From: a virus
Direction: 5' to 3' (one strand)
DNA: 26,545 nt
IMG/VR virus record: IMGVR_UViG_3300032294_001730
Coordinates: 1 to 26,545 of that record
In this document: positions 2,019 to 5,296 of the stretch, piece after piece
Layout of the letters: each line of letters opens with the position of its first letter
Position numbering within the stretch: the stretch's first letter is position 1
Notes under the pieces: generated by a model
The model's input: only the letters and a program-made list of their open reading frames with translations
The model's database searches: none
What the model was told of the DNA's origin: nothing
Position numbers and translations under genes: made by a program

Positions 2019-2051
2019 TTTGTTTAATCAAATTTAATTTCTTAACTTTGT
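2019..2051 (+). repeat. left 33-bp direct repeat (attL-like), also a promoter
   Basis: This 33-bp segment matches 5264-5296 at 30 positions; the mismatches are at repeat positions 11, 24 and 27. It contains TTG (2020-2022), a 20-nt spacer and TAACTTTG (2043-2050), a Bacteroidota-type promoter. It starts directly after the stop of the metalloprotease gene. It could be an attachment site left by tyrosine-recombinase integration, or simply a duplicated promoter. Confidence 0.55.
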
Positions 2052-2145
2052 TATAACGGTTGGGTGTATATGTAGTTTTTTTATTTGGGAATGTCAAAAC
2101 TTATTCGTACCTTTGTAAAAAAATTACATATACACCTTGTTATAC
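2050..2145 (+). repeat. attC-like recombination site 1
   Basis: R'' box GTTATAAC (2050-2057) is followed by left arm GGTGTATATGTA (2063-2074). The right arm TACATATACACC (2125-2136) is its exact reverse complement, and R' box GTTATAC is at 2139-2145. The predicted crossover is between G2139 and T2140. The loop contains an ATG (2091) in phase with the GTT and a TTG-N20-TACCTTTG promoter. The box forms fit the integron consensus RYYYAAC / GTTRRRY loosely. The site is not a terminator, since no T-tract follows it. Confidence 0.65.
2085..2115 (+). promoter_or_regulatory. promoter inside attC-1 loop, Pc-like
   Basis: TTG (2085-2087), a 20-nt spacer and TACCTTTG (2108-2115) match the Bacteroidota housekeeping promoter form. 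Its position in the loop of the first attC, pointing into the array, would let it serve as the cassette promoter, as Pc does in classical integrons. Role inferred from position. Confidence 0.5.
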
Positions 2146-2162
2146 ACAGTACGGTTTATTAA
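2091..2162 (+). CDS. abortive 23-residue leader in attC-1
   Basis: From ATG 2091 a 23-codon frame (beginning MSKLIRTF and containing KKLHIHLVIHS) reads across the crossover codon GTT at 2139 and stops at 2162. Its middle resembles the leaders of the ORFs at 2519 (KKLNISDVIHS) and 3518 (KKLHISGVIAS). The following cassette has no in-frame continuation and uses its own ATG at 2178. The putative promoter at 2108-2115 lies inside this frame, so it may be unused here. Probably a vestigial leader. Confidence 0.3.
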   Translation: MSKLIRTFVKKLHIHLVIHSTVY

Positions 2163-2177
2163 CTAAAAAATATAAAT

Positions 2178-2447
2178 ATGAAACTAATAATTAATAACAA
2201 AATCTTCATTGGGAGATACAACGAAAATGGTAGATTACAAATACAATTGGATGATGAAAATGATGTTAAATTTTTCAAAAACTGGCAAGATAAATGTAAA
2301 AATTCCAATAGTAAGACAGATTATGTAGATAATATAGAATTTCACAAAATAACTGAACGTGGATTTTTGAAAAATTGTTTTCCTTTACTAAGTATAAATG
2401 AAGATTTTGTTACACTCCACTATGATTTATATGATGTAGTATCGTAG
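2178..2447 (+). CDS. cassette 1 protein, function unknown
   Basis: The product has 89 residues and no recognised domain. It is a mixed alpha/beta-looking polypeptide rich in Asn, Lys and Asp, with a central charged stretch and a C-terminus rich in Tyr and Asp. The gene occupies the body of cassette 1 (2140-2603). Unlike the next ORFs it begins within its own cassette, at an ATG behind an A-rich stretch. Its stop lies four bases before the R'' region of attC-2 begins at 2451. Expression probably comes from the promoter in the attC-1 loop. The style is not obviously different from phage structural accessory proteins, so it may have been captured from a phage (inference). Confidence 0.65.
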   Translation: MKLIINNKIFIGRYNENGRLQIQLDDENDVKFFKNWQDKCKNSNSKTDYVDNIEFHKITERGFLKNCFPLLSINEDFVTLHYDLYDVVS

Positions 2448-2450
2448 TAT

Positions 2451-2609
2451 TGTGTATAACGACACTCAGATATATTTAGTTTTTCTGAATTTTCAATATT
2501 TATATATAAAATAAAATTATGAGCAAAGAAATGAGAGAACACATTGACAACTTTAGGAACTTCCTTACAGAAAATTCAAAGAAAAAATTGAATATATCTG
2601 ATGTTATAC
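2451..2609 (+). repeat. attC-like recombination site 2
   Basis: R'' is TGTGTATAAC (2451-2460), whose reverse complement equals the first ten bases at the start of cassette 1 (2139-2148). The left arm at 2468-2484 pairs with the right arm at 2583-2599 at 15 of 17 positions, and R' GTTATAC is at 2603-2609. The 98-nt loop holds the start codon of the next ORF (2519). The arm sequence closely resembles that of attC-5. Confidence 0.65.
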
Positions 2610-2815
2610 ATAGTCAAATTAAAGACTTGGAAAAAGGTGATGAGATAATTATACGCAAACCATCACAAAAGGGGGAAGGTATAAATACACCAGTTATTTT
2701 TCTTAAATATAACAGATGGTGGGATTGGGTTATAGTAGAAAAAGATGGTAAAGAAATGAAAGTTAGCATATCACAAGACCCAACAGAAGATGTTATATTT
2801 ATTGAAAAACTTTAA
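2519..2815 (+). CDS. cassette 2 protein with attC-encoded leader
   Basis: The product has 98 residues and no recognised family. The first 28 codons are encoded by the loop and right arm of attC-2, which belongs to cassette 1. Codon 29 is the crossover GTT at 2603, and the body lies in cassette 2 (2604-2949). The junction peptide is KKLNISDVIHS. The body has short strands and aromatic residues (RWWDWVIV) suggestive of a small beta-rich or SH3-like fold, but this is only an impression. The leader also contains FRNFLTEN, which resembles the L-x-E-ended tags of phage head proteins; that may be coincidence. A TATTTAT heptamer lies at 2497-2503, 15 nt upstream of the start. Confidence 0.7.
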   Translation: MSKEMREHIDNFRNFLTENSKKKLNISDVIHSQIKDLEKGDEIIIRKPSQKGEGINTPVIFLKYNRWWDWVIVEKDGKEMKVSISQDPTEDVIFIEKL

Positions 2816-2821
2816 TTTGAT

Positions 2822-2955
2822 TGTGTATAACGTTTTGCAGGTTGCTTTAGTGGCGACCTTAACCGATAAACTTAAATAGAATTACAAATTTTAAATTACA
2901 GATAAAATGTCAAAAAAGAACGAAACTAAGCCATTGAAGCAACCTGCTGTTAGCG
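2822..2955 (+). repeat. attC-like recombination site 3
   Basis: R'' TGTGTATAAC (2822-2831) is complementary to the start of cassette 2 (2603-2612) at nine of ten positions. The left arm GCAGGTTGCTT (2837-2847) and right arm AAGCAACCTGC (2937-2947) are exact reverse complements. R' is GTTAGCG (2949-2955). This site is distinctly more GC-rich than the surrounding phage DNA. The ATG of the next ORF (2907) lies in the loop. Confidence 0.7.
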
Positions 2956-3107
2956 GTTCGTTGCTTGTGGAAATTAAAACATTACTGGAACAATACAGAG
3001 ATGAACAAATGCCTAATTGGAATGAACCCTATCATTATGAAGCAGAGGGGTGGGCATCAATGAAATACTTTATTCAATGGTTGGAGCGTAGGAGCAATGA
3101 CCGCTAA
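2907..3107 (+). CDS. cassette 3 protein with attC-encoded leader
   Basis: A 66-residue protein. Fourteen leader codons come from attC-3, and codon 15 is the crossover GTT at 2949, within the peptide QPAVSGSLL. From memory, small proteins with a similar VSGS leader occur in Bacteroidota cassette regions, but I could not check this. The body (EIKTLLEQYRDEQMPNW onward) has a Trp-rich central segment and a basic C-terminus. Its stop codon TAA (3105-3107) lies inside the R'' box of attC-4, so gene end and recombination site are physically fused. Function unknown. Confidence 0.7.
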   Translation: MSKKNETKPLKQPAVSGSLLVEIKTLLEQYRDEQMPNWNEPYHYEAEGWASMKYFIQWLERRSNDR

Positions 3108-3443
3108 CGTTTTGGGGCTATGAATATGTAAAACCCCTTTTTGTGCGGTGGGGAATAATTACTGCACGTAACTTAATACATAATAAAATGGAAAACAAAT
3201 TTTTACAAAGTGTTGAAAGATACACTGACAATGAGCGAGGTACGACAGGCTACAAAGCTATTTATAGCAATGGTCTTGATTTTGAAACTTTATTATTTGC
3301 AATTAAAAACGGTGTGGATAACATAGATATCCCATCTATCGTAAAATCTGTAAAGACCATTGAGGAAATAGAAGCTATTGGTGCTGAATTACCTTAATGC
3401 GGTGTGCTGGCAGGGGTTTTATTATTTATAGCCCCTGTTAGCA
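3100..3443 (+). repeat. attC-like recombination site 4 with a gene in its loop
   Basis: R'' ACCGCTAAC (3100-3108) is complementary to the start of cassette 3 (2949-2957), 9 of 9. The left arm (3114-3137, GGGGCTAT to AAAACCCC) pairs with the right arm (3413-3435, GGGGTTTT to ATAGCCCC). R' is GTTAGCA (3437-3443). The loop is about 275 nt, far longer than in the other sites, and holds the ORF at 3188-3397. Either the site has acquired an insertion, or very large loops are tolerated here. Confidence 0.65.
3188..3397 (+). CDS. small protein encoded inside the attC-4 loop
   Basis: The product has 69 residues and no recognised domain. The ATG at 3188 follows an AATAAA stretch and is preferred over an in-frame GTG at 3143 that falls in the site's left-arm flank. 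The sequence includes YKAIYSNGLDFETLLFAIKNG and a C-terminal helix rich in Glu. The frame is in phase with the crossover GTT at 3437 but stops 40 nt earlier. Continuing past the stop in that frame would give FIAPVSKSF, which echoes the VSGS leader of attC-3. This suggests the ORF is an elaborated or terminated leader. Function unknown. Confidence 0.55.
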   Translation: MENKFLQSVERYTDNERGTTGYKAIYSNGLDFETLLFAIKNGVDNIDIPSIVKSVKTIEEIEAIGAELP

Positions 3444-3456
3444 AATCGTTTTAATG

Positions 3457-3589
3457 TTTGCTAACGGTTACAGATATATGTAGTTTTTCTTAATTTGAAA
3501 CACAGAACTTAAATAAAATGGAAGAAGTAAATAAAAACACAAAACTTGATAATACAGATAAAAAATTACATATATCTGGTGTTATAGCG
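3457..3589 (+). repeat. attC-like recombination site 5 (body of an ORF-less cassette)
   Basis: R'' TTTGCTAAC (3457-3465) is complementary to the start of cassette 4 (GTTAGCAAA, 3437-3445), 9 of 9, with only 11 nt between them. Arms AGATATATGTA (3472-3482) and TACATATATCT (3567-3577) are exact reverse complements. R' is GTTATAGCG (3581-3589). Cassette 4 (3438-3581) is therefore almost nothing but an attC. Its loop supplies the start of the ORF at 3518. The arms resemble those of attC-2. Confidence 0.65.
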
Positions 3590-3838
3590 AGTTTTTTGTG
3601 TGGTGTTGGGGTTGAAAATGTTAATGTTGTTGATTTAGAAACAGCAAAGTATTTGAAGAAAATGGGGTTTAATAAACCAACACACTGGTATTGGCAAGAT
3701 AAAACATTAACATTTGTTGAGAAAGGGTTGAAACGTGTAAAATACGGTAAAAGGCGAATGAACCACAATAAGTATGATGAATGGATATATTCAGCACCAA
3801 CACAGGATGAAGTTGAGCGTTGGGTAAATTCGCTATAA
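3518..3838 (+). CDS. cassette 5 protein with attC-encoded leader
   Basis: The product has 106 residues and no recognised family. The first 21 codons lie in attC-5, codon 22 is the crossover GTT (3581), and the junction peptide is KKLHISGVIAS. The body begins with a hydrophobic stretch and continues with an alpha/beta pattern containing GFNKPTHWYW and a basic segment KRVKYGKRRMNHNKY, ending in a short helix. The stop TAA (3836-3838) lies inside a terminal R''-type box CGCTATAAC. An antiparallel open frame over this gene has no comparable features. Confidence 0.65.
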   Translation: MEEVNKNTKLDNTDKKLHISGVIASFLCGVGVENVNVVDLETAKYLKKMGFNKPTHWYWQDKTLTFVEKGLKRVKYGKRRMNHNKYDEWIYSAPTQDEVERWVNSL

Positions 3839-3839
3839 C
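3830..3839 (+). repeat. orphan R'' half-site closing the cassette array
   Basis: TCGCTATAAC is the exact reverse complement of the first ten bases of cassette 5 (3581-3590), as expected for that cassette's own R'' box. I could find no matching arm or R' box downstream before the recombinase gene at 3891. The last attC is therefore truncated, or it abuts an attI-like region. Confidence 0.5.
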
Positions 3840-3890
3840 TAGTATATATCAACACCCATTTAAAAACAACTGAAAAACAAGGTTTTAAAG

Positions 3891-4302
3891 ATGAATAAGA
3901 CAAATTATTATGAAATTTGTAATCAAAAATTGAAGTATTTAAACTACTCGGATAGGACAATAAAGTCCTATCTTTTTTATATAAAACAATTTTTGGATAA
4001 TACCAAAATACCACCAACCAGATTAAAATCTAATGATTTCCAATCCTATTTAGATCAATATGATTTTACGTCAATATCACAACAAAACCAAGTTATAAAT
4101 GCCATTAGGTTTTTATATAAATTTGGTTTAGAAAAAAAATACGATAAAGTAAGTTTTAAAAGACCAAAATCCGAAAAGAAATTACCAGTTGTTATTGATG
4201 GAGAATTTATAAAAGAACAATTATTAAAAATTGAAAATATAAAACATAAAACAATTCTTACTTTAACATATTCAGTTGGATTGAGAGTGTCAGAAGTGGT
4301 TA
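3891..4302 (+). pseudogene. tyrosine recombinase, N-terminal fragment
   Basis: About 137 codons of a XerD/IntI-type tyrosine recombinase. The SAM-like core-binding domain contains YSDRTIKSYLFYIKQFL and SISQQNQVINAIRFLYKFGL, followed by the start of the catalytic domain with box I GLRVSEVV carrying catalytic Arg at residue 132. Homology ends there, and the frame runs out a few codons later inside the antisense GIY-YIG gene. The segment with the Lys, His-x-x-Arg and surrounding residues (about 110 residues by comparison with XerD spacing) is absent. The SxSxQNQ pattern occurs in both integron-type and Bacteroidota phage-type integrases. It follows the cassette array in the same orientation, 51 nt after the last ORF. 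Confidence 0.85.
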
Positions 4303-5088
4303 ATCACCTTCATAATATCTGAAATCTGTATCATTTTTTATTTGACCAAGTAATTTTGCTTTTAATGTCCTAACTTTCATCCCAATTGAATCGGCAGCTT
4401 CTCTTTTACTTGGAAACACAATTCCAGACTTAATGTTAATTATAGGTCTTTTATTGTGAGCCACTCTACCTCTATTCGATTTACTTATTTTATCTTTTGT
4501 TTCTTTTGTGTGAGACTTCCCCAACATAGGTTTATGATGTGCGTGATTATCACTTATTTTTTGTTTAGTTTCTTTAGATAATTTTACACCTTTCCTATTT
4601 GTATTGTTTTTAGTGTGGTTATTTCCTAATTCCCAACCATCAGATAAAAACTCATCAATCAATTTAGAATCTAATACCTTTGTTTCGTCGTTTTTGTGAA
4701 TCCATACTTTCCCATACATAGGATTCTTATTTCCATAAAGTAGACCTTTTTTGGATTTAGACATTTTAAGTTTAGATTCTTCTGACATTTTACTACTATC
4801 ACCACCTTCCCTTAAATTCATCCCGCGTTCGGTATTTAACGAACCGTATAGTTCAATATAATACTTTTCTAATCTATTTAATTCCTCCCTACAGCACTCT
4901 TCTATAATAGTTAAGGTGTGGGATGACCAACCATATTTCAAAATAGAATTATATAAAAACCTTTGTTCTTCACAATCACCCCGTTTATATTGATTAGTGC
5001 GTCTTTTAATATCAATTGATTGTCCTATATAAATCCTATTAGTTGGGGATGTAATGATGTAAATTCCACATATTTTCTCTTTTCCCAT
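4300..5088 (-). CDS. GIY-YIG homing endonuclease inserted in the recombinase gene
   Basis: A complete 262-residue enzyme. The N-terminal nuclease core has CGIYIITSP and then RIYIGQSIDIKRR, with the family's catalytic Arg, and a Glu-containing segment near residue 70. Two or three NUMOD3-like modules follow (LLYGNKNPMYGK; PMLGKSHTKETKDKIS). The C-terminus has an IENR1/NUMOD1-like helix-turn-helix (IKSGIVFPSKREAADSIGM). Its stop codon overlaps the last recognisable codons of the recombinase fragment on the other strand. Insertion is accompanied by loss of the recombinase centre, so this is not a clean intron or intein. A TATTTAT element lies 12 nt upstream of its start. Confidence 0.9.
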   Translation of the reverse strand: MGKEKICGIYIITSPTNRIYIGQSIDIKRRTNQYKRGDCEEQRFLYNSILKYGWSSHTLTIIEECCREELNRLEKYYIELYGSLNTERGMNLREGGDSSKMSEESKLKMSKSKKGLLYGNKNPMYGKVWIHKNDETKVLDSKLIDEFLSDGWELGNNHTKNNTNRKGVKLSKETKQKISDNHAHHKPMLGKSHTKETKDKISKSNRGRVAHNKRPIINIKSGIVFPSKREAADSIGMKVRTLKAKLLGQIKNDTDFRYYEGD

Positions 5089-5100
5089 AATCTTTTTATT

Positions 5101-5107
5101 ATAAATA
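5101..5107 (-). promoter_or_regulatory. TATTTAT element before the GIY-YIG gene
   Basis: Read on the minus strand, TATTTAT ends 12 nt before the ATG at 5088. All three homing endonuclease units in the window have this heptamer upstream, at 12, 8 and 4 nt. Weak on its own because of base composition. Confidence 0.3.
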
Positions 5108-5162
5108 TCAAGAATTATTCAAAAAGTAGGTGGACACAAAAATATTTTGTATATTTGGAATA

Positions 5163-5261
5163 ATGATCCAAAAAATTGCGGGTCATACTAATGTTAAAAC
5201 CACAGAAATCTACACCCACGTTTCAAATCAAATGTTAAGTAAAGTAAAATTACCAATTTAA
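5163..5261 (+). pseudogene. tyrosine recombinase, C-terminal fragment
   Basis: A 32-codon frame carries the end of a tyrosine recombinase: IQKIAGHTNVKTTEIYTHVS. It includes the GH box (catalytic His/Trp position) and the nucleophilic Tyr in EIYTHV, then a short Lys-rich tail. Together with the fragment at 3891-4302 it shows that one integrase gene was interrupted. Homology may begin a few codons before the ATG. A TATATTTG sequence at 5150-5157 sits 5 nt upstream, so the fragment could be transcribed, but a functional peptide is unlikely. The stop lies two bases before the right 33-bp repeat. Confidence 0.8.
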
Positions 5262-5263
5262 TA

Positions 5264-5296
5264 TTTGTTTAATTAAATTTAATTTCCTACCTTTGT
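5264..5296 (+). repeat. right 33-bp direct repeat (attR-like) and promoter
   Basis: Copy of 2019-2051 with three mismatches. It contains TTG (5265-5267), a 20-nt spacer and TACCTTTG (5288-5295). The TAnnTTTG box ends exactly 4 nt before the GTG start at 5300, so the predicted transcript would be leaderless. The shared region extends through the whole spacer, not only the promoter boxes, which favours duplication over convergent promoters. Confidence 0.6.

Follow-up and report, generated by a model that had tools for sequence, protein, structure and literature searches.

An integron variant in phages and a cultured Flavobacterium whose cassette genes appear to be reversed and to begin at or inside their own attC sites

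The array described here lies in the window, a 26,545-base IMG/VR virus record whose phage genes include an RNA ligase and an endolysin, and is best explained as an integron with reversed cassette genes, a reading to which we give a probability of roughly 0.83. In canonical cassettes, the attC lies behind the gene. Here, in the reading direction of the gene, a cassette would consist of an attC followed by a gene, would enter at an attI beside the recombinase gene, and would be joined by a crossover at TAA|C. The attC before a gene would thus be the 5′ end of that gene, which would start after the attC, start from its loop, or lie wholly inside the loop. At sites of 106–150 nt, the start codon would lie in the hairpin loop, with the 3′ arm and the GTT core read as codons (...LNISD-V), and at sites above 150 nt a small gene would sit mostly or entirely within the loop. 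Since leader and body would normally travel together as one gene, the frame would be kept. The unit, its junctions, the gene orientation and the frame are evident from the sequence comparisons set out below.

Positions 2054–3839 of the window held five attC-like hairpins with TAACG / TGTTA-type cores, each followed by a body ending in TAAC, and a tyrosine recombinase gene came next (Table 1). Our detector, which combined TAACG...GTTA cores with arm complementarity, scored the five hairpins at 15.5–22. The boundaries of cassette 1 were deduced from TAA|CG breakpoints found in relatives. The leader of the gene at 2519 was also present on another body in locus L009 (ATG at about 2122), and that of the gene at 2907 on another body in L031. 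The RNA fold of cassette 3 had z = −5.9. A search of Rfam and a DNA-level search of a phage database gave no match. We also observed a 34-nt repeat, 91% identical between positions 2018–2051, before the array, and 5263–5296, after the recombinase; it fits a Bacteroidota promoter.

Table 1. Features of the cassette array and its surroundings in the window.
Feature	Position	Strand	Description
Candidate Bacteroidota promoter	2021..2051	+	TTG ... TAACTTTG, ahead of the array; consensus match only
Cassette 1	2057..2459	+	attC1 2054-2139 (85 nt) and body; gene 2178-2447 (89 aa) with its own start after attC
Promoter-like motif in attC1 loop	TTG 2085-2087, TACCTTTG 2108-2115	+	TTG-N20-TACCTTTG; Bacteroidota-type motif match
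Cassette 2	2460..2830	+	attC2 2457-2603 and body; gene starts in attC loop
Gene of cassette 2	2519-2815		Leader MSKEMREHIDNFRNFLTENSKKKLNISD, then V (GTT 2603)
Cassette 3	2831..3107	+	attC3 2828-2949 and body; loop-start gene 2907-3107 (MSKKNETKPLKQPA|V), whose stop TAA (3105-3107) belongs to the following core site
Cassette 4	3108..3464	+	Oversized attC4 3105-3437 (332 nt) and 29-nt body 3437-3465
ORF (69 aa)	3188-3397		Whole ORF within attC4 loop
Cassette 5	3465..3838	+	attC5 3462-3581 and body; adjoins attI
Gene of cassette 5	3518-3838		Leader MEEVNKNTKLDNTDKKLHISG, then V; stop TAA 3836-3838 within core site; phrog_12005 match starts only at residue 37
attI-like junction	3839..3890	+	Constant CTAGTATATATCAACACC... 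beside variable TAA; other strand ...TATATACTAG|TTA
Tyrosine recombinase gene, broken	3891..5261	+	N-terminal part 3891-about 4301, C-terminal remnant 5160-5261
GIY-YIG/NUMOD3 endonuclease gene	4300-5088	-	Replaces the middle of the recombinase gene (Pfam Phage_int_SAM_4, Phage_integrase, GIY-YIG/NUMOD3)

An earlier note on this DNA had proposed that attC loops supply a start codon and an in-frame leader to the gene that follows. The coordinates on which it relied are correct: the ORFs at 2519, 2907 and 3518 start in an attC loop and read across GTT in frame. The GTT cores lie at 2139, 2603, 2949, 3437 and 3581, and the distances from these three starts (84, 42 and 63), from the ATG at 2091 (48) and from the ORF at 3188 (249) are all multiples of 3. 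For the last two, the phase stood but the proposed role as leaders did not. The ATG at 2091 sits in the spacer of the promoter-like match, its frame stops 7 codons past GTT, and TGA directly follows the ATG in the L002 homologue; as for the ORF at 3188, it is small and lies complete within the 332-nt attC loop. Three of three in-phase ORFs in the window alone are weak evidence; the related set is not.

Relatives were gathered through the recombinase, through three attC arms (viral contigs) and through one arm (cellular genomes). Across 143 loci, the detector found 471 sites; Markov-shuffled sequence gave about 1.7. The 388 distinct attC-like sites, cellular loci included, came from related phage and Bacteroidota contigs, and phase was counted on the first 375. 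Phase 0 dominated across these arrays, though it was not universal: main ORFs that began at a loop ATG and ran at least 30 codons past GTT were in phase 0, 2 and 1 in 140, 28 and 7 cases, respectively (67, 28 and 7 without the sites matching our own search patterns). Counted by arm family, 38 were in phase 0, 15 in phase 2 and 3 in phase 1, and 3 were mixed. The ATG-to-GTT distances ranged from 24 to 108, and as an internal control the TAAC-to-ATG distances were spread over the three residues modulo 3 (49/32/50). The start lay inside the attC at 162 of 216 sites of 106–150 nt, versus 3 of 117 sites of 60–105 nt. Moreover, where the same attC preceded different or unrelated bodies, both members were in phase 0 in 353 pairs, and no pair mixed phases 0 and 2. 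The proposal that the loop provides a start codon and an N-terminal leader is thus borne out by a phase kept across relatives and by single leaders found on many unrelated bodies.

The leaders were also conserved as peptides. In the families KLHISD, LNISD and L[GN]IGA, lengths differed by multiples of 3 nt, and close pairs of leader loops had pN/pS of 0.45–0.61. In two of the three families, LNISD and L[GN]IGA, the leader frame had the lowest pN/pS of the three frames; the frame signal of KLHISD was weak over all pairs (0.90, with 0.60 in one shifted frame) and was seen in close pairs only. Known domains began behind the leader, MT-A70 from residue 37 and Phage_integrase from residue 90. These observations are consistent with translation beginning at the loop ATG. 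When attC3 and attC5 were folded as RNA, the start codon was in the loop region and the arms were paired; a ribosome starting in the loop would have to open the 3′ arm while reading into the body. One cassette ORF with an LNISD leader (L086:5844-6566, minus strand) encodes a tyrosine recombinase domain (Phage_integrase, E = 8.7e-35). We also considered the leader as a phage capsid-targeting signal, given that the LNISD leaders (MKDLKHIKRFNESEEN...) resemble such N-termini, and rejected it: ORFs outside the cassettes on these contigs showed no enrichment of the leader motif (34 vs 32 expected; for a stricter motif 7 vs 2.7, with a shuffle maximum of 8).

Canonical ownership, in which the attC belongs to the upstream cassette, predicts that a body is accompanied by its downstream attC. 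Among non-identical pairs of bodies, the upstream attC alone was shared in 27 and the downstream attC alone in 1, whereas 4 pairs had both attC in common and 13 had neither. At the level of single bases, identity began at TAACG and stopped at the next TAACG, and the unit between two cores moved whole, as in integrons. Because the bodies kept their upstream attC and the breakpoints fell at TAACG, we take attC, leader and body as one cassette and GTT as not being the usual crossover.

The same crossover was found beside the recombinase gene. A conserved junction of the TAAC-TA...TATAT type preceded 35 of 36 integrase genes; its gene side was constant and its array side varied. Within the sets L002/L003 and L004/L005/L007, the 200 nt on the recombinase side were 100% identical, whereas identity on the array side was 22–44%; the cassettes changed exactly at TAA|C of the attI-like junction (G|TT in the complementary strand). 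Integrons likewise have an attI adjoining the recombinase gene, at which cassettes change. Read on the other strand, the arrangement is that of a normal integron: the recombinase gene faces away, attI ends in G and the cassette enters with TTA.

It is the genes that are turned. They did not point away from attI with the attC behind them: 302 viral units were inverted and 2 canonical, the remainder being ambiguous or lacking an ORF, and on cellular contigs 11 were inverted and 4 canonical. The gene-sense strand gave the more stable hairpin in 327 of 362 sites and the antisense strand in 33; in two class 1 reference attC sites, with canonical genes, the antisense strand folded better. In gene sense, the core flanks were TAACG...TGTTA (T before GTT in 401 of 405), as opposed to AACA/AACC...CGTT for the class 1 reference. 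In canonical integrons, recombination uses the bottom strand (PMC11023631, PMC3053210). Junctions, unit, core flanks and folding thus agree that the cassette genes are inverted relative to canonical ones. In consequence, a Pc promoter in attI could not drive genes that read toward it, and they would instead be read from cassette-borne or phage promoters.

The adjacent recombinase presumably performs the exchange. In intact relatives of the window enzyme, such as L002, it has 265 aa. The L002 protein matched the NCBIfam model integrase_gron with 155.5 bits, below the cut-off of 265, and also matched XerA/Xer models; it has 38 residues where IntI4 (2a3v) has 86, a region that includes the attC-contacting residues 209–241 named for IntI (PMC3053210). 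Judged by the cut-off score and the insertion, the recombinase is not an IntI, though its gene sits at the intI position. In the window, the middle of this gene has been lost to the GIY-YIG gene, so that the array is probably frozen unless another recombinase acts.

Three other explanations were weighed. The earlier note had suggested that ordinary recombination joins each new body at GTT to a resident leader, the attC belonging to the upstream cassette and any incoming body being fused in frame. The conserved frame, the occurrence of one leader on many bodies (the 353 pairs) and two cases in which one body follows different leaders, each in frame, speak for it. As the main route, it is already contradicted: the bodies follow the upstream attC (27 vs 1), the breakpoints are at TAACG, the attI junction uses the same TAA|C crossover, and the strand asymmetry is the reverse of that expected. 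Moreover, with frame classes 0 and 2 both present, bodies swapped freely would often end up out of frame. We consider this explanation improbable.

Only marginally less improbable is that the loop ATGs are chance open frames, produced by AT-rich arms and the R-box, with the real start after GTT. Phase 1 (xGT TRR) usually meets a stop in the core, the sites of 60–105 nt have genes with their own later ATG, and some bodies begin with GTTATG, in which the ATG just after GTT could serve as start. However, the next in-frame ATGs of the window genes lie 153, 60 and 81 nt inside the body, the leaders are conserved as peptides with 3-nt indels only and pN/pS below 1, and phase 0 outnumbers phase 2 by family (38 vs 15). 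The least probable of the three, and very unlikely in our view, is that the repeats are phage intergenic hairpins spread by homologous recombination, with no recombination system of their own. Homologous exchange between phages is common, the window integrase is broken, and the recombinase scores below the IntI cut-off. Nevertheless, the breakpoints fall at single core sites with unrelated sequence beyond, cassettes vary beside a constant attI in sister phages, and the recombinase stands at the same place in many loci.

Exchange at GTT in the manner of the earlier note does exist, as an in-frame swap of bodies, but it was seen in two events and is not the main route. In one, L032, L039 and L042 share a 211-nt body (99.5%) with L114, behind the leaders MEEDKKLEQNLDKSNKKLHISD and MKDNKIKRFNENSELNISD, both in frame. 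The other is an in-frame exchange at GTT between L113 and L121. These cases suggest that leader and body are separable on a longer scale, being swapped at GTT only rarely. The joints may arise through a second core site, through the opposite strand or by homologous recombination within the shared arm. It is possible, if rather doubtful, that the same recombinase (or the opposite attC strand) also exchanges bodies at GTT and that frame-matched leader-attC families act as reusable N-terminal exons. If so, a route to new integron cassettes would be visible, and fusion to a resident leader would be a secondary reaction on an evolutionary scale.

The sites were found on phage-like contigs (with terminase/PhoH-like and thymidylate synthase matches near two arrays) and in cellular Bacteroidota. 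Scaffold NZ_NOXV01000124 of the cultured Flavobacterium cyanobacteriorum TH021 carries two loop-start ORFs next to a gene that, judged by eye, is chorismate synthase-like; the predicted leader peptides of this array are such as MKLENENSNEPQNPQLNIGA-V. Integrase relatives near cellular arrays were only 31–44% identical in their best matches, and an attC-like site lay near one of them. The cellular CTTGCGTATAGGTGATG sites (L156-L178) were without loop-start ORFs, and their genes were canonical where the unit could be scored; the inverted architecture is thus not general in Bacteroidota. These loci hold a near-identical 124-nt attC-like element, which occurs in several Bacteroidota genomes and, in G773, in four places on two contigs. 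We must also note an array of the same type (L143) on a contig binned as Candidatus Nitrosotalea, an archaeon; this binning is probably an error.

As far as its sequence goes, the array is an integron variant new to the literature that we found, present in phages as well as in at least one cultured Flavobacterium. No open-access paper that we found describes an integron in which the genes are systematically reversed and start in or within the attC of their own cassette. With class 1 and sedentary chromosomal integrons, the arrays share an attI by the recombinase gene, the G|TTA crossover, arrays of cassettes, and attC-like imperfect hairpins with R″/R′ cores (of the RYYYAAC and GTTRRRY types) and complementary ends of each body. 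In contrast to integrons, the genes here point toward attI and start at or in the attC, the recombinase falls below the IntI cut-off and is without the full IntI insertion, and the attC reaches 332 nt, compared with 57 to 141 bp (PMC3053210). According to section 3.4 of one report, attC arrays (phage integrons or CALINs) are known from phages, including a Polaribacter phage, and phage attC sites are active with IntI1 (PMC9892861). That section describes neither inverted genes nor starts in attC, whereas the phages here carry a recombinase and an attI. In Polaribacter phage P12002L, our detector gave no comparable site.

Translation from a recombination site across its core is also known for ORF-11 and ORF-18 in attI1 and for short ORFs in attC, whose frames stop within the core or shortly beyond it and act by reinitiation or coupling (PMC8876359); here, the frame stays open and the leader would be part of the protein. 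Similarly, the predicted aac(6')-Ib ORF of L189 begins in attI1, upstream of the cassette boundary. That is one canonical gene started from attI, whereas here, as a rule, one size class of attC supplies the start of its own gene. In Treponema integrons, intI is turned and transcribed toward attI, with recombinase and cassette genes in the same direction (PMC3607928). The common direction is shared with our arrays, in which, however, it is the cassette genes that are turned, the recombinase gene standing in the usual place of intI.

The direction of a gene with respect to its attC is regarded as fundamental to integrons; correct orientation and expression from Pc are said to require selectivity for the bottom strand (PMC11023631). 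A lineage with inverted genes would represent another way to express cassettes, in which the attC both encodes protein and serves recombination. In-frame joints of three leader-attC families with more than 80 distinct body starts make the origin of new cassettes testable. Annotation tools that assume canonical orientation and an attC shorter than about 150 nt could overlook or misassign such arrays along with their N-termini.

The attC size classes differed in where the gene begins. At the shortest sites (44–60 nt) and at those of 70–105 nt, the gene started after the attC, and some had a promoter-like motif of the Bacteroidota type (9 vs 2.4 expected and, with attC1 included, 13 vs 3.6, respectively). 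This excess was modest, and there was none in the leader class (106–150 nt). Sites above 150 nt, with 32 raw detector matches vs about 1.3 expected by chance, had ORFs in the loop in 24 of 24 cases, attC4 of the window among them, and in 17 of these at least 60% of an ORF of at least 45 codons lay there; several loop ORFs ended 14–18 nt before GTT. The attC of 216–309 nt in L011, L033, L008, L019, L032 and L120 had small genes mostly or wholly inside the loop. Elsewhere in the window, seven ORFs with unrelated bodies (771, 18036, 20571, 21515, 22087, 22446 and 22850), one of them an endolysin, had a common N-terminal tag like MKIIITEDQ..LL, which is possibly a targeting or packaging signal.
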